Below, piece by piece: positions 16,465 through 32,829 of a stretch of 32,968 nucleotides of DNA. Under the pieces are notes generated by a model that did no database searches, was not told the origin of the DNA, and was given only the letters and a program-made list of their open reading frames with translations. The stretch covers positions 1 through 32,968 of the forward strand of contig VXMO01000013.1 of assembly GCA_009841045.1 (NCBI GenBank), written 5' to 3'. Numbering within the stretch: position 1 is the first letter of the stretch; each line of letters begins with the position of its first letter. Origin of the DNA: Dehalococcoidia bacterium (GTDB lineage: Bacteria > Chloroflexota > Dehalococcoidia > UBA6926). The translations under genes were made by a program, and so were the position numbers.

Positions 16465-17652
16465 ATGGATTTCCGATTTTCTCAAGAAGACGAAGCGTTT
16501 CGCCGGGAAGTGAGAGAATTCGTCAACGCCGAGTGGGATCCCAAGGGATACGACTCAGTCGGCGCGTCCATCGCCTCCTATGATCTCCACACTCACGAGG
16601 CCATAGACCTTGTCAAGGAATGGCAGCTCAAGCTCGCCGATAAGGGTTGGTGGACTCTGCACTGGCCCACTGAGTTCGGCGGGCAGGGCGCGCCCATCTC
16701 CCGCCAGCTGATTTATCGCGAGGAAATGGCCTACTGGGGCGCGCCGTCATCGGGCGCGAGCGACCTTGTTGGGCCTGTCCTGATGTACCACGGAAATGAA
16801 TGGCACCGAGACGAACTGCTGCCTCACTACGCCACTGCCGAGATTGAGTTCTGCCGCCTGCTCTCCGAGCCCGGTGCGGGATCTGATCTTGCAAGCGTGC
16901 AGACACGGGCGGTGGAAGACGGCGATGATTTCATCGTCACCGGCCAGAAGATCTGGACCTCCATGGCGGAGATGGCCGATTACGGACAGGCGCTTGTTCG
17001 CACCGATCCCGAAGCGGCCAAGCATCGTGGCCTGACCTATCTCATCATCGATATGAAATCGCCGGGCATCATTCTCCGCCCGCTGTACGACATGCTTGGA
17101 CGCCGCCGATGGAGTGAGGTCTTCATGGATGAGGTGCGTGTGCCGAAGCGCAACATGGTTGGAGAAGTCAACCGCGGCTGGTACGCAACCATGACGCACC
17201 TGTCGTTTGAGCGTTCCAACATCGGGGGGCCGGCGCGGATGCTGCGCACGGTTGAGGAGTTCATTGACTACGCGCGTGAGGTAAAGGTGAACGGAGAGCC
17301 GCTGCTGAATGATGTGCGAGTGCGGCACGTGCTAGCTGACATGCGTCTGCAGATTGAGGTGGCGCGGATGATCTCTTACCGCGTGGCGTGGATGCAGACA
17401 CGTGGTGAGATTCCCGTCAAGGAGTCATCGCAGACCAAGCTGTGGGGCGATGCGCTGCACCAGGGCATCTATCGGGGAATTGCCTCTATCCTGAATGATT
17501 ACGGGCAGTTGCGGCCGGAGGACAAGTGGGCACCGGCAGGGCGCTTCATGGGCGTGAACTCCATCCTCGCGACGGGGCTTAGCATTGGTGGCGGCACACG
17601 AGAGGTTCAGAAGAACATCATCGCGCAACGGGCGCTGGGACTGCCGCGGTAG
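16465..17652 (+). CDS. Acyl-CoA dehydrogenase, large form, class A (copy 1)
   Basis: A 395-residue FAD enzyme expected to oxidise an acyl-CoA at the alpha-beta bond. It has an N-terminal helical domain (MDFRFSQEDEAFRREVREF), a beta domain with L-L-S-E-P-G-A-G-S-D-L and G-Q-K-I-W-T-S-M, and the motif L-S-F-E-R with Glu249, which aligns with the catalytic Glu of isovaleryl-CoA and long-chain dehydrogenases. The medium-chain-type Glu is replaced in the C-terminal S-I-G-G-G-T-R-E-V-Q-K segment. The usual R-x-x-F-G...F-Q and Q-x-H-G-x-x-G flavin contacts are not seen. It ends in IIAQRALGLPR. AGGGAGA lies six bases before the ATG. The substrate is unknown. It is the first of eight paralogues. Confidence 0.92.
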   Translation: MDFRFSQEDEAFRREVREFVNAEWDPKGYDSVGASIASYDLHTHEAIDLVKEWQLKLADKGWWTLHWPTEFGGQGAPISRQLIYREEMAYWGAPSSGASDLVGPVLMYHGNEWHRDELLPHYATAEIEFCRLLSEPGAGSDLASVQTRAVEDGDDFIVTGQKIWTSMAEMADYGQALVRTDPEAAKHRGLTYLIIDMKSPGIILRPLYDMLGRRRWSEVFMDEVRVPKRNMVGEVNRGWYATMTHLSFERSNIGGPARMLRTVEEFIDYAREVKVNGEPLLNDVRVRHVLADMRLQIEVARMISYRVAWMQTRGEIPVKESSQTKLWGDALHQGIYRGIASILNDYGQLRPEDKWAPAGRFMGVNSILATGLSIGGGTREVQKNIIAQRALGLPR

Positions 17653-17780
17653 GCTCTCTTTTTGTCCCCCACAGCTACCTGCGTGGTATGCTGACAACGG
17701 TTGCGAATTGGAAAGAAACCGCGTTCAGCGGCTGACAGTGACGGCGCGCCTCAGGCACGCCGGTGGGGAGGCAGGCACCA

Positions 17781-18986
17781 ATGGATTTCACGTTTGCGCC
17801 GGAAGATGAGGCGTTTCGACAGGAAATTCGAGAGTTCGTCCGGCGGGAATGGGATCCCAAGGACTACAACACTGATTTGAACGTCTTCGGCTACGACTTT
17901 GACAGTGCCGAGTATCGCGAGGACGCCAAGGTCTTTCAGAAGAAGCTGGTTGAAAAGGGCTACTGGACGATGGCGTGGCCGGAGGAGTACGGCGGACAGG
18001 GACTCCCGTTGTCCCGACAGGTCATCTACGCTGACGAACTTGCGTATGCAGGCGCGCCGCAAGGAAGCCCCGGGGCGAATATCACCGGCGCGATCATGTA
18101 CCACGCCGATGACTCCATCAAGAACGAGTTTCTTGGCAAGATGGCGACCAATGACATCGACTGGGCGCAGGGCTTCTCCGAGCCAAACGCCGGCACTGAC
18201 CTCGCCAGCTTGACCACGCGCGCCGTTGAGGACGGCGACGATTTCGTCGTCACCGGCCAGAAGATATGGTCGTCCGGCTCACACTACGCCAACTGGTACC
18301 ACGTGCTGACGCGCACGGACCCGTCCGCGCCCAAGCACCGCGGCATCACGTACCTGATCATGCAGTTGAAGGACGATGACGGGAACCAGATGCCCGGCAT
18401 CACACTGCGGCCTCTTTATGACATGTTTGGCCGACGCCGCTGGAATGAGGTCTTCATGGATGAGGTTCGCGTTCCCAAGCGGCAGGTCATCGGCGAGGTG
18501 AACCGGGGTTGGTACGCTGCCATGACGACGCTCAACTTCGAGCGGGCGGGTGGCACGGGTGCGAGAAACGTTGCCGTGCTGGAGAAGTTCCTCGACATGG
18601 CCAAGAACCTCAAGTTCAACGGCGAGCCAGTTCTCAATGACCCCCTCGTCAGGAATCAGCTCGCGGACCTGCGCATTCGTGTTGAGACTGGCCGCATGCT
18701 TTCACTGCGCCTCATCTGGCTACAGTCCAAGGGCGAGGTGCCGCAGTCTGAGAGCCTGATTGCCAACCTGTATTCGTCGATGATGGCGAAGTTCAACTTC
18801 TGGCCTGCCCTGGCACAGATTATGGGGCCGTATCGCGCCCTGCTGCAGGGTGAGAGCCGCTCCCCGGACAACGGGATGTACGGCACGAACTATGCGCTTT
18901 CGATGGTGACGGGTTACGCGGGCGGCGGTGGCATCCTGCTCGCTCCGGGCCTGATTGCGCAGAGAGGGCTTGGTCTGCCGAGGTAG
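17781..18986 (+). CDS. Acyl-CoA dehydrogenase, large form, class B (copy 2)
   Basis: A 401-residue paralogue. The N-terminus is MDFTFAPEDEAFRQEIREF, followed by G-F-S-E-P-N-A-G-T-D-L-A-S-L and the class-specific G-Q-K-I-W-S-S-G-S-H-Y-A-N-W-Y-H segment. L-N-F-E-R gives the likely catalytic base Glu254. Class B differs from class A at the C-terminus, where GGT-x-E-[IV]-Q is replaced by G-Y-A-G-G-G-G-I-L-L-A-P before LIAQRGLGLPR, and it carries an extra N-F-W-P-A-L-A...G-P-Y-R-A-L-L region. The ATG at 17781 is chosen (GGGGAGG nine bases upstream) over an in-frame GTG at 17763 that overlaps that site. A weak promoter-like TTGTCC-19-TATGCT lies at 17662-17692. Confidence 0.92.
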   Translation: MDFTFAPEDEAFRQEIREFVRREWDPKDYNTDLNVFGYDFDSAEYREDAKVFQKKLVEKGYWTMAWPEEYGGQGLPLSRQVIYADELAYAGAPQGSPGANITGAIMYHADDSIKNEFLGKMATNDIDWAQGFSEPNAGTDLASLTTRAVEDGDDFVVTGQKIWSSGSHYANWYHVLTRTDPSAPKHRGITYLIMQLKDDDGNQMPGITLRPLYDMFGRRRWNEVFMDEVRVPKRQVIGEVNRGWYAAMTTLNFERAGGTGARNVAVLEKFLDMAKNLKFNGEPVLNDPLVRNQLADLRIRVETGRMLSLRLIWLQSKGEVPQSESLIANLYSSMMAKFNFWPALAQIMGPYRALLQGESRSPDNGMYGTNYALSMVTGYAGGGGILLAPGLIAQRGLGLPR

Positions 18987-19059
18987 CCTATTCCAACGCT
19001 AGCCAACACCATGTGGAGACTCGGGGCATAGACGCCCCAACTCGGTAAGGATCTCGTCA

Positions 19060-20748: not shown

Positions 20749-20798
20749 ACGTCCTTTCCCGCATCGCCCCGCCACGCTATTGCGCTGTATGATTAGCC

Positions 20799-20826
20799 CG
20801 TCAAAGGGGTAGCCGTTCATTTGACG
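20799..20826 (+). promoter_or_regulatory. Leader stem-loop before ACAD copy 3
   Basis: CGTCAAA (20799-20805) and TTTGACG (20820-20826) form a 7-bp stem around a 14-base loop, ending three bases before the Shine-Dalgarno GAGGGAG (20829-20835). It may affect translation start or be an operator. No protein target is known. Confidence 0.4.
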
Positions 20827-20843
20827 GCGAGGGAGTACACGCC

Positions 20844-22043
20844 ATGGATTTCAGGTTCTCCGCTGAGGATGAAGCTTTCCGGCAGGAGGTTCGCGACTTC
20901 GTTCAGAGCGAGTGGGACGACCGCGGCTATGACCTCGTCTCCACGATGAACACGTCGTGGCATCTTGATGACAACGCCGCCCTCGCTTTACAGCATGAAT
21001 TCGAGCAGAAGCTTGTGCAAAAGGGCTGGTGGACGATGCACTGGCCAAAGGAGTTCGGCGGCCAGGACGCCGGCATTGAACGGCAACTCGTCTATCGCGA
21101 GGAGATGGCGTACCAGGGAGCGCCGTCCGCGCAGGGCGGCGGACTAGTCGCGCCGCTCCTGATGATTCACGGGCAGGACTGGCAGAAGGAGTATTTTATC
21201 CCCCGCCTTGCTAACGCTGAATTTGAGTTCGCGCAGGGATTCTCGGAGCCGAATGCCGGTTCGGACCTCGGCTCACTGACCACACGCGCCGTCGCGGACG
21301 GCGACGATTTCGTTATCAACGGCCAGAAGATCTGGACGTCAACCGCCCACCACCCTCGCGCCAAGTGGGGGCATATACTTGTGCGGACGGATCCGGACGC
21401 CGCCAAGCATCGTGGCATCTCCTATTTCCTCATCGACATGGAGTCCCCGGGTATCTCTTTGCGCCCGCTGTACGACATGCTTGGGCGTCGACGATGGTCG
21501 GAGTGGTTCCTTGAGGACGTTCGTATTCCTGCTCAAAATCTTGTCGGAGAACTCAACCGTGGCTGGTACGCCGCTATGACGACACTTTCGTTCGAGCGCG
21601 CGTCCGTTGACATTCCCGCGGCGCTGCTCCGCGAATGGGAAAAGATTGTCGACTACCTTGGCACGACGAATATCAATGGAGAGCCGTTCACAGCGAATCC
21701 CATTGTGCGCAACGAGATGGCAGACCTGCGGATCTATGTCGAGCTGGGGCGTATGCTGGCGTACCGTGTGGCATGGATGCAGACGAAGGGTCTAATGCCG
21801 CAGGCGGAGGGATCGATTGCTCGCGTCTGGGCCGGCGAGGCGACACAGCGCATATTCCGCACCGGCGCTCGTCTCATGCAGGACATGGGCACGCTCATCC
21901 CCGGCGGCCCGTCTCGATGGTCGCCGATGGGCGGCTATATCGGCGCCAACCACTACCTCTCGACGGGGCGCACATTCGGCGGCGGCACCAAGGAGATTCA
22001 GCGCAACATCATCGCGCAACGGGGGTTGGGGCTGCCGAGGTAG
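20844..22043 (+). CDS. Acyl-CoA dehydrogenase, large form, class A (copy 3)
   Basis: A 399-residue paralogue, closest in style to copy 1: MDFRFSAEDEAFRQEVRDF, W-W-T-M-H-W-P-K-E-F-G-G-Q, then G-F-S-E-P-N-A-G-S-D-L and G-Q-K-I-W-T-S-T-A-H-H. L-S-F-E-R gives Glu251 at the isovaleryl-type catalytic position. The C-terminus has F-G-G-G-T-K-E-I-Q-R and ends IIAQRGLGLPR. GAGGGAG is eight bases before the ATG. Weak -35/-10-like hexamers (TTTCCC 20755-20760, TATTGC 20778-20783, 17-base gap) precede the leader stem. The C-terminal half overlaps, in another frame, a long open frame leading into the HNH gene; only the part after 22082 of that frame looks real. Confidence 0.92.
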   Translation: MDFRFSAEDEAFRQEVRDFVQSEWDDRGYDLVSTMNTSWHLDDNAALALQHEFEQKLVQKGWWTMHWPKEFGGQDAGIERQLVYREEMAYQGAPSAQGGGLVAPLLMIHGQDWQKEYFIPRLANAEFEFAQGFSEPNAGSDLGSLTTRAVADGDDFVINGQKIWTSTAHHPRAKWGHILVRTDPDAAKHRGISYFLIDMESPGISLRPLYDMLGRRRWSEWFLEDVRIPAQNLVGELNRGWYAAMTTLSFERASVDIPAALLREWEKIVDYLGTTNINGEPFTANPIVRNEMADLRIYVELGRMLAYRVAWMQTKGLMPQAEGSIARVWAGEATQRIFRTGARLMQDMGTLIPGGPSRWSPMGGYIGANHYLSTGRTFGGGTKEIQRNIIAQRGLGLPR

Positions 22044-22081
22044 AGCGCCGGATTCATCTTGGGCAAAAGGGCAATGTCGCT

Positions 22082-22477
22082 ATGATGGAGCGCGAATGGG
22101 CGCAGTGCGCGTACTGCGCTGACCCGTTTACTGATTTCGGGCCCAAGCCGACGTGGGAGCACGTGATTCCGCTTGATCGCGGGGGATGCGATCACCTCGC
22201 CAACCTCGTGCAGGCGTGTCCAGACTGCAACCGCGCCCTTACCGGGCTGAATGAGCGCGGCACACTGACACCCATCGAATGGTGGGCACGACAGGAATGG
22301 TTCCGCGACGGGCCTGAGGACGTGACCTCATTCGACTACGCGGGGTGGTCTCAGCAGCAACGGCAGGACGCGCTCAATCGCGCCGCATATTGGGAGGCGC
22401 GAGCCCGCTGGCACCTCCAATTCGAGTGCATGACGAACCCGCACGGTCAGATTTCGCCCTTGCATCACGACGATTAG
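22082..22477 (+). CDS. HNH endonuclease-domain protein
   Basis: A 131-residue protein with a clear HNH/McrA-type fold. C9xxC12 and C46xxC49-N50 form the structural zinc site. Glu26-His27 in W-E-H-V-I-P-L-D-R-G-G stands for the usual D/E-H metal and catalytic pair, and Asn41 in A-N-L-V completes the HNH pattern. The C-terminal half (about 55-131) is Trp-rich and not recognised. Such small proteins may be restriction-type, phage-derived or housekeeping nucleases. It lies 38 bases after copy 3, inside a metabolic cluster, with no phage gene or methylase beside it. The start could be either of two adjacent ATGs (22082 or 22085). The frame is open far upstream across copy 3, but that part is a shadow. 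Confidence 0.85.
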   Translation: MMEREWAQCAYCADPFTDFGPKPTWEHVIPLDRGGCDHLANLVQACPDCNRALTGLNERGTLTPIEWWARQEWFRDGPEDVTSFDYAGWSQQQRQDALNRAAYWEARARWHLQFECMTNPHGQISPLHHDD

Positions 22478-22505
22478 AGAATCCGCTCCTTCTTACGTGC
22501 GGCTC

Positions 22506-22534
22506 TTTACCGCGTCCAACACGAGTGCTAGAGT
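22506..22534 (+). promoter_or_regulatory. Promoter of ACAD copy 4 (TTTACC / TGC-TAGAGT)
   Basis: TTTACC (22506-22511), a 17-base spacer ending in TGC (extended -10), and TAGAGT (22529-22534), 89 bases before the ATG. The same pattern occurs before copies 5 and 6. Confidence 0.6.
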
Positions 22535-22622
22535 GCGCCTAGCTTTGTGACGGGTATTGGCCGCCGCGCTTTGAACGGCGGTAATCATCGCGCGGGCGAT
22601 GAGTGGGGCAGGAGGCGCTCCG

Positions 22623-23834
22623 ATGGATTTTCGGGAAGACCCACAGGATCAGGCATTTCGCACCCAGGTGCGTGATTTCATCACCAAGAACTGGGACGAC
22701 AAGGGCTTTGACGGCCACAGCATGGCAGTCCGCTCCTGGGACTTCGATATGCAGGAGTCCCGCGAGAACGACAAGGAGTTTGTGAAGAAGCTTGTCGACA
22801 AGGGCTGGTACACGATGACCTGGCCCAAGGAGTTTGGCGGCGGGGATTATCCCATCAGCCAGCAGTTTATCTACAAGGAAGAGCTGGCCTATGCCAATGC
22901 CCCGAACGGCTCACCGCAGTCCAATATCACCGGCGCGCTCATGTTCCATGCCTCGGATGAAGTGAAGGACGAGTTCCTGCCTCGAATGGCGAACGGCGAC
23001 ATTGAGTGGGCGCAGGGCTTCTCCGAGCCGAACGCCGGCACGGATCTTGCCTCTCTACAGACCCGCGCTGTGGAGGACGGCGATGATTTTGTCATCACCG
23101 GCCAGAAGATATGGTCGTCGGGCGCGCATCTGGCGGACTGGTACCACGTGCTCGTCCGCACGGACCCGGAGGCCCCCAAGCACCGTGGCATCACCTATCT
23201 GCTGGTCAATCTCAAAGATGAAGAGGGCACCCGCCCGGACGGCCTGACCCTGCGGCCTTTGTATGACATGATGGGCCGCTGGCGCTGGTGCGAGGTCTTC
23301 ATGGACGGCCTCCGCGTGCCGAAGAAGTACGTGCTGGGAGAGGTCAACCGCGGCTGGTATGCCGCCATGACCACGCTGAACTTTGAGCGAACCGGCACCG
23401 AGGGCCCCGTTCGCCATATCGGCATCCTTGAGAGGTTCATTGACATGCTCAAGGAGGCGACGTTCAACGGGGAGCCGGTGCTCAGTGATCCGATGGTTCG
23501 GCACAAGCTGGCTGATCTGCGTGTCACCATCGAGGCCGATAGGCAGCTCGCCAACCGTGTGGCGTGGATGCAGGCGCGAGGCGATGTGCCTCAGCATGAG
23601 GGCGCGATCTCCGGCTACCGCAACCAGGTGACAGCCAAGCTGCACTTCTGGCCGACACTCGCCAAGATCATCGGCGACTACGGCATCCTGAATCGTGGCG
23701 AGGGCAGGGCGCCCCATAACGGCTACTACGGCGCCTACAATGCCATCTCGCTGTCACTGGGATTCGGCGGTGGCGGCGGCATCCTGCTCGGGCCGAACAT
23801 CATCGCGCAACGGGGACTGGGACTGCCGAGATAA
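22623..23834 (+). CDS. Acyl-CoA dehydrogenase, large form, class B (copy 4)
   Basis: A 403-residue class B paralogue: MDFREDPQDQAFRTQVRDF, W-P-K-E-F-G-G-G-D-Y-P, G-F-S-E-P-N-A-G-T-D-L-A-S-L and G-Q-K-I-W-S-S-G-A-H-L-A-D-W-Y-H. L-N-F-E-R gives Glu255 as the likely base. It has M-G-R-W-R-W-C-E where the others have G-R-R-R-W-[NS]-E, so a usually conserved Arg-Arg pair is changed. The C-terminus has F-G-G-G-G-G-I-L-L-G-P-N and IIAQRGLGLPR. The ATG at 22623 has AGGAGG seven bases upstream; a GTG at 22599 would precede that site. A strong terminator follows at 23867-23905. Confidence 0.92.
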   Translation: MDFREDPQDQAFRTQVRDFITKNWDDKGFDGHSMAVRSWDFDMQESRENDKEFVKKLVDKGWYTMTWPKEFGGGDYPISQQFIYKEELAYANAPNGSPQSNITGALMFHASDEVKDEFLPRMANGDIEWAQGFSEPNAGTDLASLQTRAVEDGDDFVITGQKIWSSGAHLADWYHVLVRTDPEAPKHRGITYLLVNLKDEEGTRPDGLTLRPLYDMMGRWRWCEVFMDGLRVPKKYVLGEVNRGWYAAMTTLNFERTGTEGPVRHIGILERFIDMLKEATFNGEPVLSDPMVRHKLADLRVTIEADRQLANRVAWMQARGDVPQHEGAISGYRNQVTAKLHFWPTLAKIIGDYGILNRGEGRAPHNGYYGAYNAISLSLGFGGGGGILLGPNIIAQRGLGLPR

Positions 23835-23866
23835 GCAGCTTTCTCGCTCCCGATTGGAAGTAAATG

Positions 23867-23905
23867 GCCCCCCGCGCCCTTAAGTGGCGCGGGGGGCTTG
23901 TTTAT
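23867..23905 (+). terminator. Strong rho-independent terminator
   Basis: A perfect 12-bp GC-rich stem (23867-23878 with 23886-23897, arms GCCCCCCGCGCC / GGCGCGGGGGGC) with a CTTAAGT loop is followed by TTGTTTAT. It separates ACAD copy 4 from the solute-binding protein gene. Confidence 0.88.
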
Positions 23906-23934
23906 CATTGCGAGCCCTCACTGTTGCCGTCCCG

Positions 23935-23940
23935 TAAAAT
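23935..23940 (+). promoter_or_regulatory. Probable -10 box (TAAAAT) of the solute-binding gene
   Basis: TAAAAT lies 41 bases before the GTG at 23982 and after the terminator. The -35 is unclear (TTGCGA at 23908-23913 is 21 bases away). Confidence 0.4.
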
Positions 23941-23981
23941 GGAATAGCGGGAGCAGTGAGATCGGTCGAGGAGTGTGTTCT

Positions 23982-25922
23982 GTGTCAAAGTTTGTCTCTT
24001 TGCGGCGACTAGCGCTAATTGTGTCTGTGTGGGGCATTACTGCATTTATTCTCATGGCCTGCGGGAACGAAGAGCCGACGCCGGGCTCGCGAGATTCCGG
24101 TCAGCCATCGCCTTCTGTCAGTGTCATTGCTCCCACCGCGACTATCACGCCTATACCCACAGCAACCACCCGTCCCATCGCGCCGCCGACGGCGACACCG
24201 GATGCCGACGCGGGGCTGTCCGTCACGGATCGGCTCAAGGCGAACGCAGAGGGGTTCCAGTACGTCACGGGCGAATACGGTGGAGAAATCACGATTGCCA
24301 CCATCTCTGATCCACTAACGTTCAACTTGGCGATTGCGAAGGACGCCTCATCATCAGGAGTACTGTCTTACCTATTTGAGGGCCTAACTGAAACCTCATG
24401 GTTGACCGACCATGTCGAACCCTCTTTGGCAAGGTCGTGGGAGGCATCAGAGGACGGGATGACGTGGACATTCCACCTGCGTGACGATGTCTTTTGGCAC
24501 GACGGCAGGCCGTTCACAGCCCGCGACGTTGAGTTCACCTTCAATCGGATCATCTACAACGACGATATCCCGGCGAGCGCAAGGCCAGCCTTCAATTTCC
24601 GTTTTCTGGATGAGGAGACCGGGGAGTGGCGAGAAAAACCCATGACCGTCGTCGCGGTGGATGAATATACAGTTGTATGCATCTTGCCGCAGCCGTTCGC
24701 CCCGTTCCTGCGGGCGATGGGCACAGCCATCTATCCGCGGCACATTCTCGAAAAGCACGTGGATGATGGGACGTTTGTCACAACATGGGACATTAACACT
24801 GCCCCGTCCGACATCATCGGCACGGGCCCCTTCACCATCGAAACCTATATGCCGGGAGAGCGCGTCGTCATGGCGCGGAACCCCAATTACTGGTTGAAGG
24901 ACAATGAGGGCAATACACTGCCGTACCTGGATCAAGTCGTGCATCGGATTGTTCCCGAATTGGAGGACGAGCTCACGTATTTCCTGTCTGGCCAGACCGA
25001 TATCCATGGGGTACTCGGAAAGGAATATGCTCAGCTGGAGCCATTGCAGGAAGACCAGAACTTCACGATCTACAAGCGCGGCCCCACCTTTGGCACGACT
25101 TTCCTGGCATTCAATATGAACCCGGGCCGCAATGCTGAGACCGGGGAGTTGTACCTTGACCCTCGCAAACTTGAGTGGTTTAGCAACACGCAATTCCGGC
25201 AGGCTGTCGCCCACGTCATTGACAAGGAACGCATCATTGATGAAGCACAGCACGGATTCGGCTACCCACAGTGGTCGTCCATCAGTCCGGCCGCAGGCGA
25301 TTTCCATAATCCGGACGTTCGGAAGTACGAATACAGCATCGACAAGGCGAATGAGATCCTCAACGACCTGGGATGGGTCGATACGGATGGCGACGGAATC
25401 CGTGAAGATGCGAACGGCGAGAATATAGTGTTCGCGTTGACAACAAATGAAGGAAATAGCGTCCGGCAGACCGTCGGTTCAATCGCCCATGAGGGGATGC
25501 GCGCTATTGGTCTGGACGTTGACTATTCCGTGGTTGACTTTGGCGAGATCGTTGGCCAGTTGACCACCTCTTACGATTGGGAAGCCATCGTTATCGGCTT
25601 CAGCGGAGGAACGGACCCCCACGGCGGAATAAATCTCTGGCATAGCAGTGAAGGCTTGCATCTTTGGTATCCCAACCAGCCCGAACCGGCCACGGACTGG
25701 GAGGCCGAAATCGACGCGCTCTACATCAATGCCAGCAAGGAACTAGATCGCCAACAGCGCGTGGAGTTGTACCACCAGGCGCAGGCGATTGTGGCGGAGA
25801 ACGTGCCAATCATCTATACAACGCTTGGGGAGAGAATCGCCGCTGTCCGCAACGTGTTTGGAAACATGACGGCCACGCTGTATGGCCTGTTTGATTTGAG
25901 GTACGTGTATAGGACGGACTAG
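23982..25922 (+). CDS. ABC transporter solute-binding lipoprotein, family 5 (peptide-type)
   Basis: A 646-residue lipoprotein of the DppA/OppA/NikA-type (SBP_bac_5). The short signal has basic residues L-R-R then a hydrophobic stretch ending in the lipobox L-M-A-C with Cys27. A Pro/Thr-rich linker (about 40-75) is followed by the binding domain: F-E-G-L-T-E near 130 and W-T-F-H-L-R-D-D-V-F-W-H-D-G-R-P-F-T-A-R-D-V, the family signature. The binding fold runs to the end, and an S-G-G-T-D-P-H-G stretch lies in the C-terminal third. The ligand may be a peptide or another small molecule. No permease or ATPase gene is near, so it works with a distant ABC system. The GTG at 23982 has GAGGAG eight bases upstream; an upstream TTG overlaps the terminator and is rejected. 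Confidence 0.88.
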   Translation: MSKFVSLRRLALIVSVWGITAFILMACGNEEPTPGSRDSGQPSPSVSVIAPTATITPIPTATTRPIAPPTATPDADAGLSVTDRLKANAEGFQYVTGEYGGEITIATISDPLTFNLAIAKDASSSGVLSYLFEGLTETSWLTDHVEPSLARSWEASEDGMTWTFHLRDDVFWHDGRPFTARDVEFTFNRIIYNDDIPASARPAFNFRFLDEETGEWREKPMTVVAVDEYTVVCILPQPFAPFLRAMGTAIYPRHILEKHVDDGTFVTTWDINTAPSDIIGTGPFTIETYMPGERVVMARNPNYWLKDNEGNTLPYLDQVVHRIVPELEDELTYFLSGQTDIHGVLGKEYAQLEPLQEDQNFTIYKRGPTFGTTFLAFNMNPGRNAETGELYLDPRKLEWFSNTQFRQAVAHVIDKERIIDEAQHGFGYPQWSSISPAAGDFHNPDVRKYEYSIDKANEILNDLGWVDTDGDGIREDANGENIVFALTTNEGNSVRQTVGSIAHEGMRAIGLDVDYSVVDFGEIVGQLTTSYDWEAIVIGFSGGTDPHGGINLWHSSEGLHLWYPNQPEPATDWEAEIDALYINASKELDRQQRVELYHQAQAIVAENVPIIYTTLGERIAAVRNVFGNMTATLYGLFDLRYVYRTD

Positions 25923-25978
25923 TAGTATTCGTGTCCGCTACACTGGGGCGTCAGCAGTGGGAGTAGGGATGCAGGCTC

Positions 25979-26389
25979 ATGGAATTCAATACTGACCTGA
26001 ACTATATCGGTATCATCGCGGCGACGATTGTTCCGTTTGTGATTGGCGGCGCGTGGTACTCACCCATCCTCTTCGCCAAGCCGTGGATGCGTGAGAACGG
26101 TTTCACTGAGGACGACCATCAGGGCAATCTGCTCCGCATGTTCGGCGGCTCCGCCATCATGCTGCTCATCGCGGCCTACGTGCTCTCACTGGTCATTGGA
26201 GATGATTCGTCGATTGTTGAAGGGTTGCGCATCGGGCTGGCCGTTGGAGCCGCGTTCGTTGCTGCTGCCTTTGCCGTCACATACCTGTTCGAGAAGAAAT
26301 CGCCAACCCTTTTCGTCATCAACGCTGGCTATCACGTCGTCACGTTCACCGTGATGGGCGCGATTATCGGTGCGACGTCCACTCTGTAG
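25979..26389 (+). CDS. DUF1761-type small membrane protein
   Basis: A 136-residue membrane protein with about four hydrophobic helices (roughly residues 9-29, 55-72, 83-105, 112-134). The pattern G-G-A-W-Y-S-P-I-L-F-A-K-P-W with a following G-F-T-E-D-D segment is characteristic of DUF1761, whose function is unknown. It stands 56 bases after the solute-binding gene and could be co-transcribed or use a -10-like TACACT at 25939-25944. Nothing links it to ACAD chemistry other than position. Confidence 0.8.
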   Translation: MEFNTDLNYIGIIAATIVPFVIGGAWYSPILFAKPWMRENGFTEDDHQGNLLRMFGGSAIMLLIAAYVLSLVIGDDSSIVEGLRIGLAVGAAFVAAAFAVTYLFEKKSPTLFVINAGYHVVTFTVMGAIIGATSTL

Positions 26390-26406
26390 CAGCCCCCTGA
26401 CGCATC

Positions 26407-26435
26407 TTTACCCTGTACGCGCGTGGTGCTACATT
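26407..26435 (+). promoter_or_regulatory. Promoter of ACAD copy 5 (TTTACC / TGC-TACATT)
   Basis: TTTACC (26407-26412), a 17-base spacer ending in TGC, and TACATT (26430-26435), 73 bases before the ATG. It shares the pattern seen before copies 4 and 6. Confidence 0.6.
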
Positions 26436-26507
26436 GCGCGCATGAAGGCGGCGCCGTCGCGATAACGGCACCGTGAATCATCGTTGAACGATGAAGGGAG
26501 AGGCAGG

Positions 26508-27719
26508 ATGGATTTCTCAACGAACCCCGCCGACGAGGCTTTCCGAGCCGAGCTGCGCGAGTTTCTTGCCAAAGAGTGGGACCCCAAGGACTACGACGCC
26601 TACGCGATGAACGTGTGGTCGTACGACTATGACAATCCGGGCGCTCGCGACCATGCTGAGAACTTTCAGAAAAAGCTGATTGATCGCGGGTGGTGGACGA
26701 TGGCGTGGCCGGAGGAATATGGTGGACAGGACGCGCCCATTTCCCGCCAGCTCGTCTACTCGGAGGAGATGGCTTACCACAACGCGCCGGCCTCGCAGCC
26801 GCAGGCGAACGTCGCTGGCGCGATCATGATCCACGGCACGGACTGGATGAAGGACACGTTCCTGGACGGGATGCGCAACAACACCGTCAACTGGGCGCAG
26901 GGTTTCTCCGAGCCGAACGCCGGTACAGACTTGGCATCCCTTTCCACGCGTGGTGTGGAGGACGGCGATGATTTCGTCGTCACCGGCCAGAAGATATGGT
27001 CGTCCGGTTCTCACTTCGCCAACTGGTACCACGTGTTGGTGCGAACTGACCCCGAGGCCCCGAAGCACCGGGGCATCACGTACCTCGCCATGCAGCTCAA
27101 GGACGATGAGGGCAACCAGATGCCCGGCATCACCCTGCGGCCCCTGTACGACATGCTCGGCCGCCGCCGCTGGAACGAGGTGTTCATGGATGAGGTCCGT
27201 GTGCCGCGTCACCAGATCATCGGCGAGGTCAATCGCGGGTGGTACGCAGCGATGACCACGCTCAACTTTGAGCGGACCGGCATCGACAGCGCCGCGCGCC
27301 TGATTGGTGTGCTTGATCGTTACCTCCAAGAGATGCGCGGCGTGACGTTCAACGGCGAGTCGCCGCTCAAGGATGATGTCATTCGCCATATCCTTGCGGA
27401 CGCAAGGATCACGCTTGAAGCCGACCGTATGCTGGCATACCGCGTGGCGTGGATGCAGGCGAATGGCGAAGTGCCGCAGGCAGAGGGTGCGATCTCAGGT
27501 TATCGGGCACTGGCAACGGCCAAGTTCACTTTCTGGCCCGCGCTGGCCAAGGCGATTGGTCCCTACAGGGCACTGTTGAAGGGCGAGAGCCGCGCGCCGG
27601 GCGACGGCAAGTACGGCACGAACTACGCGCTGTCCATGACGACGGGCTTCGGCGGCGGCGGTGGACTGGCGTTGGGGCCCAACATCATCGCACAACGCGG
27701 GCTGGGGCTGCCGAGGTAG
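26508..27719 (+). CDS. Acyl-CoA dehydrogenase, large form, class B (copy 5)
   Basis: A 403-residue class B paralogue, very like copy 2: W-T-M-A-W-P-E-E-Y-G-G-Q, G-Q-K-I-W-S-S-G-S-H-F-A-N-W-Y-H and the K-D-D-E-G-N-Q-M-P-G-I-T-L-R-P-L-Y-D-M loop. A 38-base stretch (26970-27007) is identical to 18240-18277 in copy 2, including silent positions. L-N-F-E-R gives Glu255. The C-terminus is F-G-G-G-G-G-L-A-L-G-P-N then IIAQRGLGLPR. The ATG at 26508 has AAGGGAG seven bases upstream; a GTG at 26484 is less likely. A perfect palindrome follows 23 bases after the stop. Confidence 0.92.
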   Translation: MDFSTNPADEAFRAELREFLAKEWDPKDYDAYAMNVWSYDYDNPGARDHAENFQKKLIDRGWWTMAWPEEYGGQDAPISRQLVYSEEMAYHNAPASQPQANVAGAIMIHGTDWMKDTFLDGMRNNTVNWAQGFSEPNAGTDLASLSTRGVEDGDDFVVTGQKIWSSGSHFANWYHVLVRTDPEAPKHRGITYLAMQLKDDEGNQMPGITLRPLYDMLGRRRWNEVFMDEVRVPRHQIIGEVNRGWYAAMTTLNFERTGIDSAARLIGVLDRYLQEMRGVTFNGESPLKDDVIRHILADARITLEADRMLAYRVAWMQANGEVPQAEGAISGYRALATAKFTFWPALAKAIGPYRALLKGESRAPGDGKYGTNYALSMTTGFGGGGGLALGPNIIAQRGLGLPR

Positions 27720-27742
27720 TTTCTGTCAGAAGACGATGACAG

Positions 27743-27766
27743 AGGGGCGGCTCGCGAGCCGCCCCT
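27743..27766. repeat. Perfect 24-base GC-rich palindrome
   Basis: AGGGGCGGCT-CG and its exact reverse complement, 12 bases per arm, lie after ACAD copy 5. As RNA it gives a 10-bp stem with a CGCG loop, followed by ACGTTATT. It resembles a common dispersed intergenic repeat and could act as a weak terminator. Confidence 0.75.
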
Positions 27767-27845
27767 ACGTTATTCTGCAAAGGGAGAGAATACCGCCAAG
27801 CGGACTGGGAACATAGCGAACCGCATAAGTCACTCCAAATCCCCA

Positions 27846-29036
27846 ATGACTCTCTTTGTCGACAATCGCATACGAATCGGGTCTATTTTCGTTGCCTTGA
27901 TAGTGGCGCTTACCCTCATCGCGTGTACTTCGACGGAAGAGGAACAAGAGGCGGAGCCGTTCACGATTGGCGTGATGGAGTCGCTGACGGGTCCCGGTGA
28001 GACGTACGGAACGGTGGCGAGCCAGGCAAAGCAGATGGCTGCTGATGAGATTAACGCTGCGGGTGGTATTGATGGCCGTCCGCTTGAGTTTGTCATCGAG
28101 GATTCAAAGTGTGCTGCGCAGGATGCCATCGCCGCATATAACAAGCTTACGCAAGTCGATGGCATGAAGATCATCCTTGGCCCCTCATGCAGCAGCGCCA
28201 TGCTTGCCGTTGCTCCTTTGGCAGAAGAGGACGGGGTCATTCTCTTCTCGGGCCTAGCGAGCAACCCCGATATCGCCAATGCCGGAGACTACATATTCCG
28301 TACGCAAATCAGTGATGTCTTTGTCGGCAGGGACACCGGAAACACATTGTGGGCAGACGGAATCCGCACGCTGGCAACAATCACGGAAACGACGGACTAC
28401 GCGGAAGGTGTTCGGCGGACCTCAGTTGCACAATTCGAATTGCGTGGCGGCGAGGTAGTCGCTGCAGAAAAGTACCTGTCGGACACACTCGATTTCCGGG
28501 TGCATCTGACCAAGCTCTTTGAAGCTAATCCGGATGCCCTCCACATAGCGCCCCAATCCGAGTTCTCGGCAGGCTCAATCATGAAGCAGGCCAAAGAGCT
28601 GGGCTATACGGGCCTGATTTATGCGGAAACCGTGTCCGTTGGAACGACAGCCCTTGAGATTGCCGGTGAGGCGGCAACGGGCGTGAAAGCCATCACGGCT
28701 GACCTTGACCCCGCAAACGAAAAGGCACAGCAAGTCCTCGCAGATTTTAGAGATAGGTATGACTACGTGACATTGCCCTGGCACCTGGGGTCTGCTTATG
28801 ACGATGTCTATATTGCCGCCGAGTGTCTCAAGCAGACAGGCGATGACAGCGACGCCGACGGTTTTCGAGATTGTCTGTATGAAATCACGTGGAGTGGCGC
28901 TATCGGCGACGATTACAGCTTTGATGCGAATGGAGAGGTCGTCGGTCTATCCCGGGTCGTCGTGGAGGTCCTGCCACTCGCGGAAAGGACTGAGGACGTC
29001 AAGTATAGGGTGATTGGTCCAGCGCCACGGTCGTAA
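27846..29036 (+). CDS. ABC solute-binding lipoprotein, branched-chain amino acid type
   Basis: A 396-residue lipoprotein of the LivJ-like (Peripla_BP_6) family. The signal is hydrophobic residues 11-26 and the lipobox L-I-A-C with Cys27, followed by a Glu-rich linker. Then comes the typical start F-T-I-G-V-M-E-S-L-T-G-P-G with A-A-D-E-I-N-A-A-G-G-I-D-G-R-P-L, and I-L-G-P-S-C-S-S near residue 115. Two lobes cover about 40-390. Ligands in the family include branched-chain amino acids, amides, urea and aromatic acids. No LivHMGF-type genes are near. The ATG lacks a good Shine-Dalgarno. It could feed or sense substrates for the ACADs on either side. Confidence 0.88.
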   Translation: MTLFVDNRIRIGSIFVALIVALTLIACTSTEEEQEAEPFTIGVMESLTGPGETYGTVASQAKQMAADEINAAGGIDGRPLEFVIEDSKCAAQDAIAAYNKLTQVDGMKIILGPSCSSAMLAVAPLAEEDGVILFSGLASNPDIANAGDYIFRTQISDVFVGRDTGNTLWADGIRTLATITETTDYAEGVRRTSVAQFELRGGEVVAAEKYLSDTLDFRVHLTKLFEANPDALHIAPQSEFSAGSIMKQAKELGYTGLIYAETVSVGTTALEIAGEAATGVKAITADLDPANEKAQQVLADFRDRYDYVTLPWHLGSAYDDVYIAAECLKQTGDDSDADGFRDCLYEITWSGAIGDDYSFDANGEVVGLSRVVVEVLPLAERTEDVKYRVIGPAPRS

Positions 29037-29049
29037 TGCTTGCTGAGGC

Positions 29050-29079
29050 TTTACCTTAGACACGTGTGCGTGCTATCGT
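29050..29079 (+). promoter_or_regulatory. Promoter of ACAD copy 6 (TTTACC / TGC-TATCGT)
   Basis: TTTACC (29050-29055), an 18-base spacer ending in TGC, and TATCGT (29074-29079), 81 bases before the ATG of copy 6. It probably drives copies 6, 7 and the small subunit together. Confidence 0.6.
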
Positions 29080-29159
29080 TCACGGGTTGAGTCAGGGGGG
29101 CAACTCGTTGGCCGTCACGACGTGTCGGCTGAGTTGTAGATAAAGGGGGAGTGGGCTAC

Positions 29160-30362
29160 ATGGACTTCCGATTTACGCCGGAAGCGCAACAGATTCAGCA
29201 AGAGGCCATCGAGTTCACCCGCAAGGAATGGGAACCCGGCAAGTGGGATACCCAGATTCTTGTCAATTGGCACCACCAGGTGGATGAGGCCGAAGAGGCC
29301 GTTAACGAATTTGAGAAGAAGCTGGTCAACAAGGGCTGGTGGACAATGCACTGGCCCAGCGAATTTGGGGGACAGGATGCCTCCATTGAGGTCCAGCTTG
29401 CGTACCGCGAGGCGATGTCCTACGCAGGCGCGCCTGCATCACTGGGTGGCGGCCTCGTCGCTCCCGTCCTGATGCTCGCAGCGCCCAAGTGGATGCAGGA
29501 TGAGTTCCTGCCGGGCATTGCGAGCGCGGACCTCGAATTCTCGCAGGGTTTCTCAGAGCCTGACGCAGGCTCCGATCTCGGATCGCTCAAGACGCGTGCC
29601 GTCCGTGACGGTGACGACTATCTCATCAGCGGTCAGAAGATCTGGGGGACGTACCGCAACCCGTGGATTCACATTCTTGTGCGAACGGATCCCGACGCGC
29701 CCAAGCATCGCGGCATAACCTATCTCCTCGCGCCCCTGAAGGACGCGGACGGCGAGTTCATGCCAGGCGTGCAGGTACGCAAGATTCCTGACGCGCTTGG
29801 TCGGCATCGCTGGGACGAGCTGTTCATGGAGAATTGGCGCGTTCCTGCGCGATACATCCTCGGCGAGGAGAATCGCGGTTGGTACACGGCGATGACGACG
29901 CTCTCATTTGAGCGCTCTAACATCCAGGCGCCCGCAACGATGCAGCGACAGATTGAGGAATACATAGCCTTTGTCCGCGAGTTGAAGGCAACACGCGGGT
30001 TCAGCCCGCTGGATGATGCTCCGTTCCGCAACCAAATGGCTAATCTCCGCATCGAGATTGAGACCCTGCGCATGATTGCTTACAGGGTCGGTTGGATGCA
30101 GAGCCGCGGCGAGATTCCCCAGAAGGAATCCTCCATGAGCAAGCTCTGGGCGGATGTTCAGTACCAGAAGACGATGAAGACTCTTGCTCGTGGCCTCCAG
30201 GAGTATGGCAATTTGCTGCCGACACAGGAGGGCATCGACATGCCGAACGAGGGATTCCTGAATAATCGCGCGTTCATGTCCGGCACGCTTAGCGTCGCCG
30301 GTGGCACAACTGAAGTGCAGCGCCAGATCATCGCGCAGCGAGGATTGGGCCTGCCGCGCTAA
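29160..30362 (+). CDS. Acyl-CoA dehydrogenase, large form, class A (copy 6)
   Basis: A 400-residue paralogue forming a tight pair with copy 7: MDFRFTPEAQQIQQEAIEF, a G-F-S-E-P-D-A-G-S-D-L segment (Asp where the other copies have Asn or Gly), A-V-R-D-G-D-D-Y and G-Q-K-I-W-G-T-Y-R-N. It keeps L-S-F-E-R with Glu251. It has F-M-E-N-W-R-V-P-A-R instead of F-M-D-E-V-R-V-P. The C-terminus is V-A-G-G-T-T-E-V-Q-R then IIAQRGLGLPR. The ATG at 29160 has AAGGGGGA nine bases upstream; the GTG at 29151 overlaps it less well. It leads a probable three-gene unit ending with the small-form ACAD. Confidence 0.92.
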   Translation: MDFRFTPEAQQIQQEAIEFTRKEWEPGKWDTQILVNWHHQVDEAEEAVNEFEKKLVNKGWWTMHWPSEFGGQDASIEVQLAYREAMSYAGAPASLGGGLVAPVLMLAAPKWMQDEFLPGIASADLEFSQGFSEPDAGSDLGSLKTRAVRDGDDYLISGQKIWGTYRNPWIHILVRTDPDAPKHRGITYLLAPLKDADGEFMPGVQVRKIPDALGRHRWDELFMENWRVPARYILGEENRGWYTAMTTLSFERSNIQAPATMQRQIEEYIAFVRELKATRGFSPLDDAPFRNQMANLRIEIETLRMIAYRVGWMQSRGEIPQKESSMSKLWADVQYQKTMKTLARGLQEYGNLLPTQEGIDMPNEGFLNNRAFMSGTLSVAGGTTEVQRQIIAQRGLGLPR

Positions 30363-30410
30363 CGGCGAGAACGAGAATCCCGCCGAAGGGTAAGAGCAAA
30401 GGAGGAGAGA

Positions 30411-31628
30411 GTGGACTTTCGATTTTCGGCCGAGGCGCAGGCCATCCGGGATGAGGCCGAGGATTTTGTCAAGAAAGAGTGGCAAAATCCGGGCTATGAC
30501 CTGACAGGCGGCCTTGCCGGTTGGCACGGCAACGAGGAAGAACGAGAAGCCGGCCACGAGGTTGCACGCCAATTCGCCAAGAAACTCGTCAAGCAGGGTT
30601 GGTATACCATGCACTGGCCGAGCGAATACGGTGGCCAGGATGCCTCCATCGAAAAGCAGCTCGCTTACCGCGAGGTCATGTCCTACAACGATGCGCCGGC
30701 GTCCCTGGGCGGCGGCCTTGTTGCTCCCGTTCTCATGGTGCACGGGCAGGACTGGCAGAAAGACCTCTTTCTGCCGTTGCTGGCCAACGCGGACATCGAG
30801 TTCGCGCAGGGATTCTCGGAGCCGGATGCTGGTTCCGACCTCGCCGGACTCAAGACACGCGCGGTCCGCGACGGCGACGACTATGTCGTCAGTGGGCAGA
30901 AGATCTGGGGCACATACCGCAACGACTGGATTCACATCCTTGTGCGGACGGATCCGGATGCTCCCAAGCACCGCGGCATCACATATCTGCTGGCACGGCT
31001 GAAGGATGAGGACGGCAACTACATGCCGGGCATCCAGGTTCGCGGCATCAAGGACGGTACAAACAATCACCGCTGGGATGAACTGTTCATGGAGAACTGG
31101 CGTGTTCCGGCAAACAACATCATCGGTGAAGAGAATCGCGGCTGGTATGCGGCGATGACGACGCTTTCGTTTGAGCGATCCAACATCGGCCGTCCGGCGC
31201 AGTTGCTGCGCACGCTGGAGCAGTTCATCGACTGGGGTGGCATGGTGCGCGATGAGGGCGGCGACACCCCGCTTGACAGGGCCGAGATTCGCCATCGTCT
31301 TGCCGAGTGGCGTGTTCGCATCGAGACGCTCCGCTCCCTCTGCTACCGCGTGGGCTGGATGCAGAGCGAAGGCATGATTCCGCAGAAGGAATCCTCGATG
31401 GTCAAGTTCTTCGGCGATGAGCTTTTCCAGCACATCTACCGTGGCCTGGCGCAGATCATGGACGGTTACGGCAACCTGCTGCCAACGAATAACGAGCGCT
31501 TCTCGTTGCCGGACGACGGTTTCCTGCCTGCCCGTGGCTGGCAGAGCATCGGTACAAGCATCGGCGGCGGCACGCGCGAGATCCAGAAGAACATCATCGC
31601 GCAGCGAGGTCTTGGCCTCCCGCGCTAA
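30411..31628 (+). CDS. Acyl-CoA dehydrogenase, large form, class A (copy 7)
   Basis: A 405-residue tandem paralogue of copy 6, 48 bases downstream and sharing G-F-S-E-P-D-A-G-S-D-L, A-V-R-D-G-D-D-Y, G-Q-K-I-W-G-T-Y-R-N and F-M-E-N-W-R-V-P. L-S-F-E-R gives Glu255. The C-terminus is S-I-G-G-G-T-R-E-I-Q-K then IIAQRGLGLPR. It starts with GTG, supported by GGAGG five bases upstream and by the conserved first residues (V/M-DFRFSAEAQ). No promoter fits in the 48-base gap, so it should be read from the copy 6 promoter. The pair probably arose by a local duplication. Confidence 0.92.
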   Translation: MDFRFSAEAQAIRDEAEDFVKKEWQNPGYDLTGGLAGWHGNEEEREAGHEVARQFAKKLVKQGWYTMHWPSEYGGQDASIEKQLAYREVMSYNDAPASLGGGLVAPVLMVHGQDWQKDLFLPLLANADIEFAQGFSEPDAGSDLAGLKTRAVRDGDDYVVSGQKIWGTYRNDWIHILVRTDPDAPKHRGITYLLARLKDEDGNYMPGIQVRGIKDGTNNHRWDELFMENWRVPANNIIGEENRGWYAAMTTLSFERSNIGRPAQLLRTLEQFIDWGGMVRDEGGDTPLDRAEIRHRLAEWRVRIETLRSLCYRVGWMQSEGMIPQKESSMVKFFGDELFQHIYRGLAQIMDGYGNLLPTNNERFSLPDDGFLPARGWQSIGTSIGGGTREIQKNIIAQRGLGLPR

Positions 31629-31704
31629 TCGCGGCCATACAACGCATACAGATTCCCGCTTTGGTGGGTGACACAAGAAAGAACAAGGGATACAGGAGGG
31701 GAAA

Positions 31705-32829
31705 ATGGATCTGGGACTTACTGAAGACCAGGAAATGCTGCGCTCGATGGCCCGAGAGTTCATTGAGCAGGAGACACCGCGCACTTTCGTCCGGGACATG
31801 GAAGAGGATGACCGCGGCTTCACAGCAGACATGTGGCAGAAGATCGCCCAGGTTGGGTGGCTCGGCCTGATCGTTCCTGAGGAGCACGGCGGAACCGGCC
31901 AGAACCTGGTCGATCTGGGCATCCTCCTGGAAGAGGTTGGCCATGGCGTCATGCCGGGCCCTTTCTTCAACACCGCGCTCACAACCGTTGCAATCCTTGA
32001 TGCCGGTTCAGATGCGCAGAAGGCTGATTACCTGCCGAGGATCGCAGCAGGTGACCTCATTGCGACCACGGCCATTTTGGAGCCGTATTCCCGCCTCGAT
32101 GCCAACGGCATCAACCTTGAGGCTGCGGCGTCCGGCAACGGCTACACGCTTAACGGAACCAAGATGTTTGTTGAGAACGCTCATGCAGCGGATCTCCTGT
32201 TGGTCGCCGCACGAACGGGCGGCTCCGGCGAAGATGGCATCACGCTACTGCTGGTTGATGCGCAGAGCGACGGTGTGTCCGTCGACAAGCTCAAGACCAT
32301 CGCCACGGACAACCAGTGCGAGGTCACGTTCAACAACGTCTCCGTTCCGGGCGCCAACGTTCTCGGTGAGGCCGGCAATGGCTGGTCCGTCCTTCGCCTG
32401 CTCCTACAGAAGGGCGCCGCGCTGCGCTGCTGCCAGATGGTGGGGGCGTTGCAAGAGGTCCTGGATATGACCGTTGAGTACGTGAAGAACCGTGTGCAGT
32501 TCGGTCGCCCAATCGGCTCCTTCCAGGCCATCCAGCACTATTGCGCGAACATGGCGACGGACGTTGACGGCTCCCGCTTCATCACCTACCAGGCGATTTG
32601 GCGGCTGGGCGAAGGACTGCCCTCCGACCTGGAGGTTTCCTCCGCGAAGGCGTGGGTCAGCGACTCCGCGCAGCGTGTGGCCGCCACGGCGCACCAGTGC
32701 CACGGCGCTATCGGCTTCACGCAGGAGCACGACCTGCAGTTGTTCACGCGCCGCCTCAAGGCGTGGGAGGTCTCCTTCGGCGATGGTGACTACCATCGCG
32801 AGCGCGTCGCGCAGGCGATGGACATCTAG
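31705..32829 (+). CDS. Acyl-CoA dehydrogenase, small form, likely partner subunit (copy 8)
   Basis: A 374-residue ACAD-fold protein distinct from the seven others. It starts MDLGLTEDQEMLRSMAREF and has classical flavin-contact motifs: R-V-Q-F-G-R-P-I-G-S-F-Q-A-I-Q-H (about 261-276) and Q-C-H-G-A-I-G-F-T (about 332-340). The isovaleryl-type catalytic Glu is replaced (a Gly falls there by hand alignment), and the medium-chain-type site reads F-G-D-G-D with no Glu. A complete flavin side without a base matches the non-catalytic subunit of heterotetrameric mycobacterial dehydrogenases (FadE26-FadE27 and FadE28-FadE29 type). It follows copy 7 by 76 bases with AGGAGG five bases before the ATG, so co-expression with copies 6 and 7 is likely. 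A weak GTTCC/GGAAC stem follows at about 32853-32866. Confidence 0.9.
   Translation: MDLGLTEDQEMLRSMAREFIEQETPRTFVRDMEEDDRGFTADMWQKIAQVGWLGLIVPEEHGGTGQNLVDLGILLEEVGHGVMPGPFFNTALTTVAILDAGSDAQKADYLPRIAAGDLIATTAILEPYSRLDANGINLEAAASGNGYTLNGTKMFVENAHAADLLLVAARTGGSGEDGITLLLVDAQSDGVSVDKLKTIATDNQCEVTFNNVSVPGANVLGEAGNGWSVLRLLLQKGAALRCCQMVGALQEVLDMTVEYVKNRVQFGRPIGSFQAIQHYCANMATDVDGSRFITYQAIWRLGEGLPSDLEVSSAKAWVSDSAQRVAATAHQCHGAIGFTQEHDLQLFTRRLKAWEVSFGDGDYHRERVAQAMDI

Follow-up and report, generated by a model that had tools for sequence, protein, structure and literature searches.

Our analysis of a 32,968-nucleotide stretch of DNA from a Dehalococcoidia bacterium (the window: the entire contig VXMO01000013.1 of assembly GCA_009841045.1) suggests that its seven large acyl-CoA dehydrogenases (ACADs) are catalytic alpha subunits, and its one small ACAD the beta subunit, of heteromeric enzymes of the ChsE4–ChsE5 type, and that many alphas share this single beta, encoded in trans. 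We assign this reading a probability of roughly 0.7. Motifs and homology suggest that alpha and beta would physically assemble; the sharing of the beta is suggested by gene counts, motifs, selection and synteny, and the flavin adenine dinucleotide (FAD) occupancy and substrates that we attribute to the alphas are likewise predictions. The genome comprises 1.95 Mb in 63 contigs and is 90.9% complete. The nearest named relatives of the window are Chloroflexota/Dehalococcoidia metagenome genomes, and the beta of isolate APA_bin_32 is 98% identical to that of the window.

Complementary motifs in large and small ACADs

The eight ACAD genes of the window all lie on the forward strand within positions 16465–32829 and encode seven large proteins (395–411 residues) and one small protein of 374 residues. 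Each contains all three ACAD Pfam domains, giving a full ACAD fold in both subunit types. For motif comparison, we aligned all 17 ACADs of the genome and then added 177 relatives from other genomes (103 large, 74 small); R280, Q291 and Q349 are numbered as in medium-chain acyl-CoA dehydrogenase (MCAD). In ordinary ACADs, as in MCAD, a set of Arg, Gln and Q-x-H-G residues holds the ADP half of the FAD of the neighbouring subunit.

All 14 large forms of the genome carry the catalytic Glu at the position used by isovaleryl-CoA and long-chain acyl-CoA dehydrogenases (IVD and LCAD), within F-E-R in 13 cases and within A-E-R in one encoded on another contig, and all 14 keep the flavin-ring motif W-x-[ST] as well as a Gly-rich C-terminal turn. 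A match to MCAD R280 occurs in one of them (an Arg in the copy on contig C29, attributable to chance) and to Q291 in none, and the alignment revealed no complete Q-x-H-G-x-x-G motif in any of the 14. The small form has R263, F266-G267, Q274, Q331 and G334. At the base positions of IVD and MCAD it carries Gly and Phe, respectively, and it has lost W-x-[ST]. An earlier sequence-only reading of the window had placed an F-E-R Glu at residues 249–255 of the seven large forms, had found the R-x-x-F-G/F-Q and Q-x-H-G-x-x-G flavin motifs missing from them, and had described a small form with both flavin motifs and Glu at neither base position; our alignment agrees throughout, with some of the Glu residues falling near position 260 if upstream starts are used.

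The same split recurs in the relatives of other genomes, and is therefore not a product of chance: the catalytic Glu is found in 103/103 large and 0/74 small proteins, R280, Q291 and Q349 are kept in 73, 72 and 71 of the 74 small proteins, respectively, and Gln is not among the common residues at Q291 of the 103 large ones. The pattern of homotetrameric ACADs, in which Glu and ADP-ribose motifs reside on one chain, is seen in no large or small form; it is present in another protein of the genome, encoded on contig C33.

Kinship to solved heteromeric ACADs

By sequence, the best solved relatives of the large forms are 4x28_A (ChsE4) and 6wy8_B (Tcur3483). We searched the PDB with an AlphaFold model of A4, the alpha encoded next to the beta (predicted local distance difference test score, pLDDT, 85.8); the top four fold matches were 6wy8_B, 6wy9_A, 4x28_B and 4x28_A, all of them alpha chains of alpha2-beta2 ACADs, with a template modelling (TM) score of ~0.8 for the best. 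The beta model (pLDDT 93; best-match TM ~0.9) matches ACADs generally, with 6wy8_C/A among the first 36, and the motif losses of the small form are those typical of beta subunits. In such alpha2-beta2 enzymes, the alpha subunit accounts for isoalloxazine binding, the Glu and the substrate, and the beta subunit binds ADP-ribose (PMC11153573), with the heteromer essential for activity and one FAD at each interface (PMC8399759). Since the division seen here matches this published alpha/beta split, the mechanism would follow by homology. The analogy with mycobacterial FadE pairs, proposed from the sequence alone, is thus borne out by sequence, fold and the literature on subunit roles.

In ChsE4–ChsE5 (FadE26–FadE27) of Mycobacterium tuberculosis (PDB 4x28), as here, the large subunit provides the only Glu and flavin-ring site and the small subunit the ADP-ribose motifs, and its alpha chain is the best or near-best match of the window's large forms in both sequence and fold; it differs in being known as a gene pair with one beta per alpha and in its ~30% identity to our proteins, and the steroid side chain on which it acts is at most a candidate substrate here. 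Tcur3481–Tcur3483, a steroid ACAD of Thermomonospora curvata (PDB 6wy8/6wy9) whose chain 6wy8_B is the best A4 fold match, shares the conserved C-terminal GGG motif and the G-L-G-x-P-R end, but is a single alpha–beta pair. Among NCBIfam models, the pimeloyl-CoA dehydrogenase subunit PimC (TIGR03204) is the top match of all seven large forms and PimD (TIGR03203) the second match of the small form. An identity as PimCD was ruled out, with large forms scoring 154–211 bits against a cut-off of 624 and the small form 198 against 653. The usual arrangement of one beta per alpha gene, while not strictly defining for the ChsE/Scd/Ipd/Tcur type, is departed from here at a ratio of 14:1.

One beta and many alphas in this genome and its sisters

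Three Pfam searches agreed on 17 ACADs in the genome, and together with two profile searches resolved them into 14 alphas, one beta, the C33 protein, an ordinary ACAD that combines Glu with ADP-ribose motifs, and a protein encoded on contig C44, with ADP motifs and, at the MCAD base position, Met instead of Glu. Seven of the alphas lie in the window and seven elsewhere, on contigs C14, C17, C18 (two), C19 (two) and C29. A check set beforehand was whether each large form has a matching small form elsewhere in the genome; the search found a single small form against 14 large ones, and so did not refute a shared partner. The single partner of the sequence-only reading therefore stands, and its seven catalytic subunits extend to 14 genome-wide.

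The sister genome G002 likewise has 14 alphas and one beta, and no second beta was found in the 10 kb downstream of that beta. We counted ~11 alphas and one beta in G001, 9–10 alphas and one beta in G004, and ~16 alphas and no beta in G003, which is 69% complete. If absences are independent, the probability that a second beta escaped the present genome (G000), G001, G002 and G004 is ~1e-4.

Alpha-to-beta ratios across Dehalococcoidia

Ten genomes were counted with class-wide alpha and beta profiles. In one other family, the alpha-to-beta ratio is ~14:1 in G081 and 10:1 in each of G131, G139 and G159. G025 (10 contigs, 97% complete) has 8:1, G006 (10 contigs, 94%) 10:2 and G078 (one contig) 6:2, while G145 (one contig, frameshifted) has numerous alpha fragments together with one clear beta. 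Paired counts also occur, ~5:5 in G009 and 2:2 in G023. In a census of 294 genomes of the class, counted by eye from at most six scored candidates per genome, so that alpha numbers are minima and beta numbers maxima, ~37 had at least six alpha-type and at most two beta-type matches.

A beta gene lies directly 3' of an alpha in 53/74 related cases, 28 of them with one preceding alpha (A-B) and 19 with two (A-A-B). The window has the A-A-B layout, in which A3, A4 and the beta form an apparent operon with a gap of 76 bp between A4 and beta; such adjacency holds for A4, but not for most other alphas of the genome. No alpha was found within the 14-kb surroundings of the G025 beta.

Descent and selection

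The 14 alphas of the genome form one clade with a support of 100/100 in two trees. Eight tested alphas of G006 form a separate clade, and those of G131 and G025 are scattered across the tree; one beta in the latter two genomes therefore accompanies several old alpha lineages. G006 belongs to the same order as our genome, and its separate alpha radiation (L174–L176) includes four copies in tandem, with Glu kept and Phe/Gly replacing W-x-[ST].

Between G000 and either G001 or G003, the ratio of nonsynonymous to synonymous substitution rates (dN/dS) is 0.043–0.092 for seven different alphas with usable orthologues and 0.065 for the beta (comparisons with G004 were saturated). These low values point to strong purifying selection, so that the tested alpha copies and the beta have been kept. 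Across species pairs, which are non-independent and whose loci may be truncated, the median beta/alpha divergence ratio at single-alpha loci is 1.28, 1.02 and 0.92 in three identity bands, the beta keeping pace with the alpha or, at close range, outrunning it; at several-alpha loci the beta diverges more slowly than the alpha, with medians of 0.85, 0.85 and 0.75, and 0.76–0.91 in the window's family. The slower divergence of a beta beside several alphas fits constraint by several partners.

Within the alphas, GGGG-x-L/A replaces the flavin-contacting C-terminal GGGT-x-E in four copies, those starting at 17763, 22599 and 26484 and the one on C17 (L015:7916–9121), and the alpha pair on C19 reads GGGR-E at this site. 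The GGGG-x-L/A alphas make up a sub-clade that retains the catalytic Glu and is strongly conserved. These GGGG and GGGR variants, and the Phe/Gly change in G006, may reflect altered flavin geometry or a loss of activity.

An igr-like operon that lacks a beta gene

Two further alphas lie on contig C19 (L014:452–7981), in an igr-like operon encoding an alpha, a tandem type III CoA-transferase, a further alpha, a MaoC-like protein (FAS1_DH), a thiolase/lipid-transfer (Ltp)/aldolase-type protein and a ChsH2 zinc-ribbon/OB protein. Domain searches found no beta ACAD gene in it. In igr-type operons, a three-carbon side chain is removed by dehydrogenation, hydration and retro-aldol cleavage (PMC12502768, PMC8399759). 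The C19 operon shares alpha ACADs, the MaoC-like hydratase and the thiolase/aldolase-like and ChsH2 domains with the igr operon of steroid degraders (ChsE1–ChsE2, ChsH1–ChsH2, Ltp2), but differs from it in the absence of the partner ACAD gene and the presence of a type III CoA-transferase. Its gene content hints at the removal of a steroid-like or branched side chain in a Dehalococcoidia genome. The simplest way for such an operon to work would be with a beta supplied in trans, and the only one is that of the window. The first alpha of the operon, C19a (L014:~338–1525), has an early in-frame TGA, and its G002 orthologue is intact; an assembly error, a true nonsense mutation or readthrough may account for this.

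A model for a shared beta subunit

We propose that, within an alpha–beta dimer, the body of the alpha would contribute the catalytic Glu, the pocket for the substrate and the flavin-ring site, and that the Arg, Gln and Q-x-H-G motifs of the beta would cross the dimer interface and grip the ADP-ribose end of the FAD whose ring lies in the alpha. The second, mirror-image site would be dead, because the beta has no Glu and the alpha no ADP motif. In the window's family, some 13 alpha duplications would have occurred with the beta kept single, so that the one beta from the A3–A4–beta operon would join many different alphas in trans, each presumably acting on a different CoA-activated substrate and passing electrons to a single electron-transferring flavoprotein (ETF); one ETF alpha subunit gene is present in the genome.

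The earlier proposal of many catalytic subunits with one shared partner is supported by the 14:1 count, which a sister genome repeats, and by similarly skewed ratios in further Dehalococcoidia families. We lean towards a broader view as well: a modular system built around one beta, which would hold the cofactor and serve as universal partner to about a dozen interchangeable alphas. Several families of the class would have arrived at it, some through the radiation of one alpha (the window's family, G006) and others by retaining a single beta alongside many ancient alphas (G131, G025). Heteromers of the ChsE type are themselves known; the many-to-one arrangement appears undescribed: the literature searched, which did not extend to key subscription papers, held no report of a beta shared among many alphas, and a search on SAR202 or sponge Chloroflexota together with ACADs returned nothing relevant.

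Alternative explanations

That the beta serves alphas beyond its own operon is, in our judgement, likely. The beta might instead pair with A4 only, or perhaps also with A3, leaving the other alphas as homomers or alpha–alpha' heteromers that hold FAD in an altered way. The apparent A3–A4–beta operon, with its common layout, would fit this, as would the lack of linkage of most alphas to the beta and the altered flavin motif of some. However, all 14 alphas, like A4, lack Q291 and the full ADP motif set, share its Glu and W-x-[ST] and derive from one ancestral alpha; moreover, known members of this enzyme type require the heteromer (PMC8399759), and the igr-like operon has alphas and no beta. We therefore consider homomeric large forms unlikely, and restricted pairing as a whole improbable, if the most serious of the competing explanations. 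A true ratio nearer to pairs, with further beta genes in the ~9% that the assembly lacks, gains some plausibility from the contig ending 139 bp past the beta, but the single betas of G001, G002 and G004, with the small chance of repeated escape computed above, and the equally skewed counts in near-complete genomes of other families make it very improbable.

Much the same holds for the idea that another ACAD partners some of the alphas. The most plausible candidate, the C44 protein, does have R/Q/Q-GG ADP motifs and lacks Glu at both base positions, but it scores 177 bits with the beta profile against 598 for the beta, resembles homomeric short-chain ACADs, retains a Ser at the T168 position that true betas have lost, and is encoded beside a metallo-hydrolase and a peptidase rather than an alpha; we give this idea very little weight. 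Hardly credible, finally, is that most large forms are functionless, decaying duplicates: rapid growth in copy number and the in-frame TGA of C19a in the present assembly would fit such decay, yet the dN/dS values of 0.04–0.09 largely refute it for the tested copies, the Glu is intact in 14/14, and orthologues, including that of C19a, are intact in sister genomes.

Several observations nevertheless weigh against a beta shared by many active alphas. The Thr of the GGGT motif is lost in six alphas (17763, 22599, 26484, C17 and the C19 pair) and its Glu also in four; with the in-frame stop of C19a, these losses mean that not all 14 alphas need be active enzymes. This Thr is not essential, since Tcur3483 has Val in its place. 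By sequence, 6wy8_A and 4x28_D match the beta well but are outscored by ordinary homotetrameric ACADs, and the fold search is likewise not led by beta chains. The genome, too, is incomplete at 90.9%.

Other features of the window and genome

The ACAD genes of the window (Table 1) are interspersed with genes for a thiamine pyrophosphate (TPP) enzyme (19060), two ATP-binding cassette (ABC) solute-binding proteins (23898, 27846) and a DUF1761 protein (25979). The TPP enzyme (19060–20748) is acetolactate-synthase-like, with PRK08266 as its nearest subfamily, and may share in the catabolism of the surrounding ACADs. Other alphas of the genome sit amid unrelated genes such as ruvC. On C18, a leucine-rich repeat (LRR) protein (L013:12840–13895) is encoded between alpha ACAD genes; its repeats resemble plant-pathogen LRR effector families far below cut-offs, and it is probably just an LRR protein. 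The C44 protein (L010:8833–10053) has an ACAD fold, adjoins a metallo-beta-lactamase-fold protein and an M20 peptidase, and is probably not an ordinary dehydrogenase.

Table 1 Positions of ACAD genes and key motifs in the window
Feature	Position	Strand	Details and basis
A1, alpha (large, putative catalytic) subunit	16465..17652	+	395 aa; Glu249; open reading frame (ORF), Pfam PF02771/02770/00441, motifs
B1, putative alpha subunit	17763..18986	+	407 aa; likelier start 17781 (profile); GGGT-x-E replaced by GGGGIL
A2, putative alpha subunit	20844..22043	+	399 aa; ORF, Pfam, motifs
B2, putative alpha subunit	22599..23834	+	411 aa; likelier start 22623 (profile); GGGG variant
B3, putative alpha subunit	26484..27719	+	411 aa; likelier start 26508 (profile); GGGG variant
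A3, putative alpha subunit	29151..30362	+	403 aa; likelier start 29160 (profile)
A4, putative alpha subunit, directly 5' of beta	30411..31628	+	405 aa; ORF, motifs, AlphaFold model
A4 catalytic Glu255 (F-E-R) codon	31173..31175	+	alignment position; E255 invariant
Beta (small, predicted ADP-ribose-binding) subunit, sole one in genome	31705..32829	+	374 aa
Beta motif RVQFGRPIGSFQAIQ (R263, F266, G267, Q274)	32491..32535	+	Arg, Phe-Gly and Gln predicted to hold the ADP part of the neighbour's FAD; sequence; R 73/74, Q 72/74 in relatives
Beta motif QCHGAIG (Q331, G334, G337)	32695..32715	+	sequence; kept in 71/74 relatives

Implications

If many alphas do share one beta, the substrate range of ACADs in a widespread uncultured class would evolve by the exchange of catalytic subunits on one fixed, scaffold-like partner, and enzyme number would be miscounted wherever annotation counts ACAD genes. 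With one beta as the bottleneck, its loss would remove a whole set of oxidations at once. Such a system would also make it possible to test directly how the interface of a heteromer can remain compatible with many partners as they diverge.

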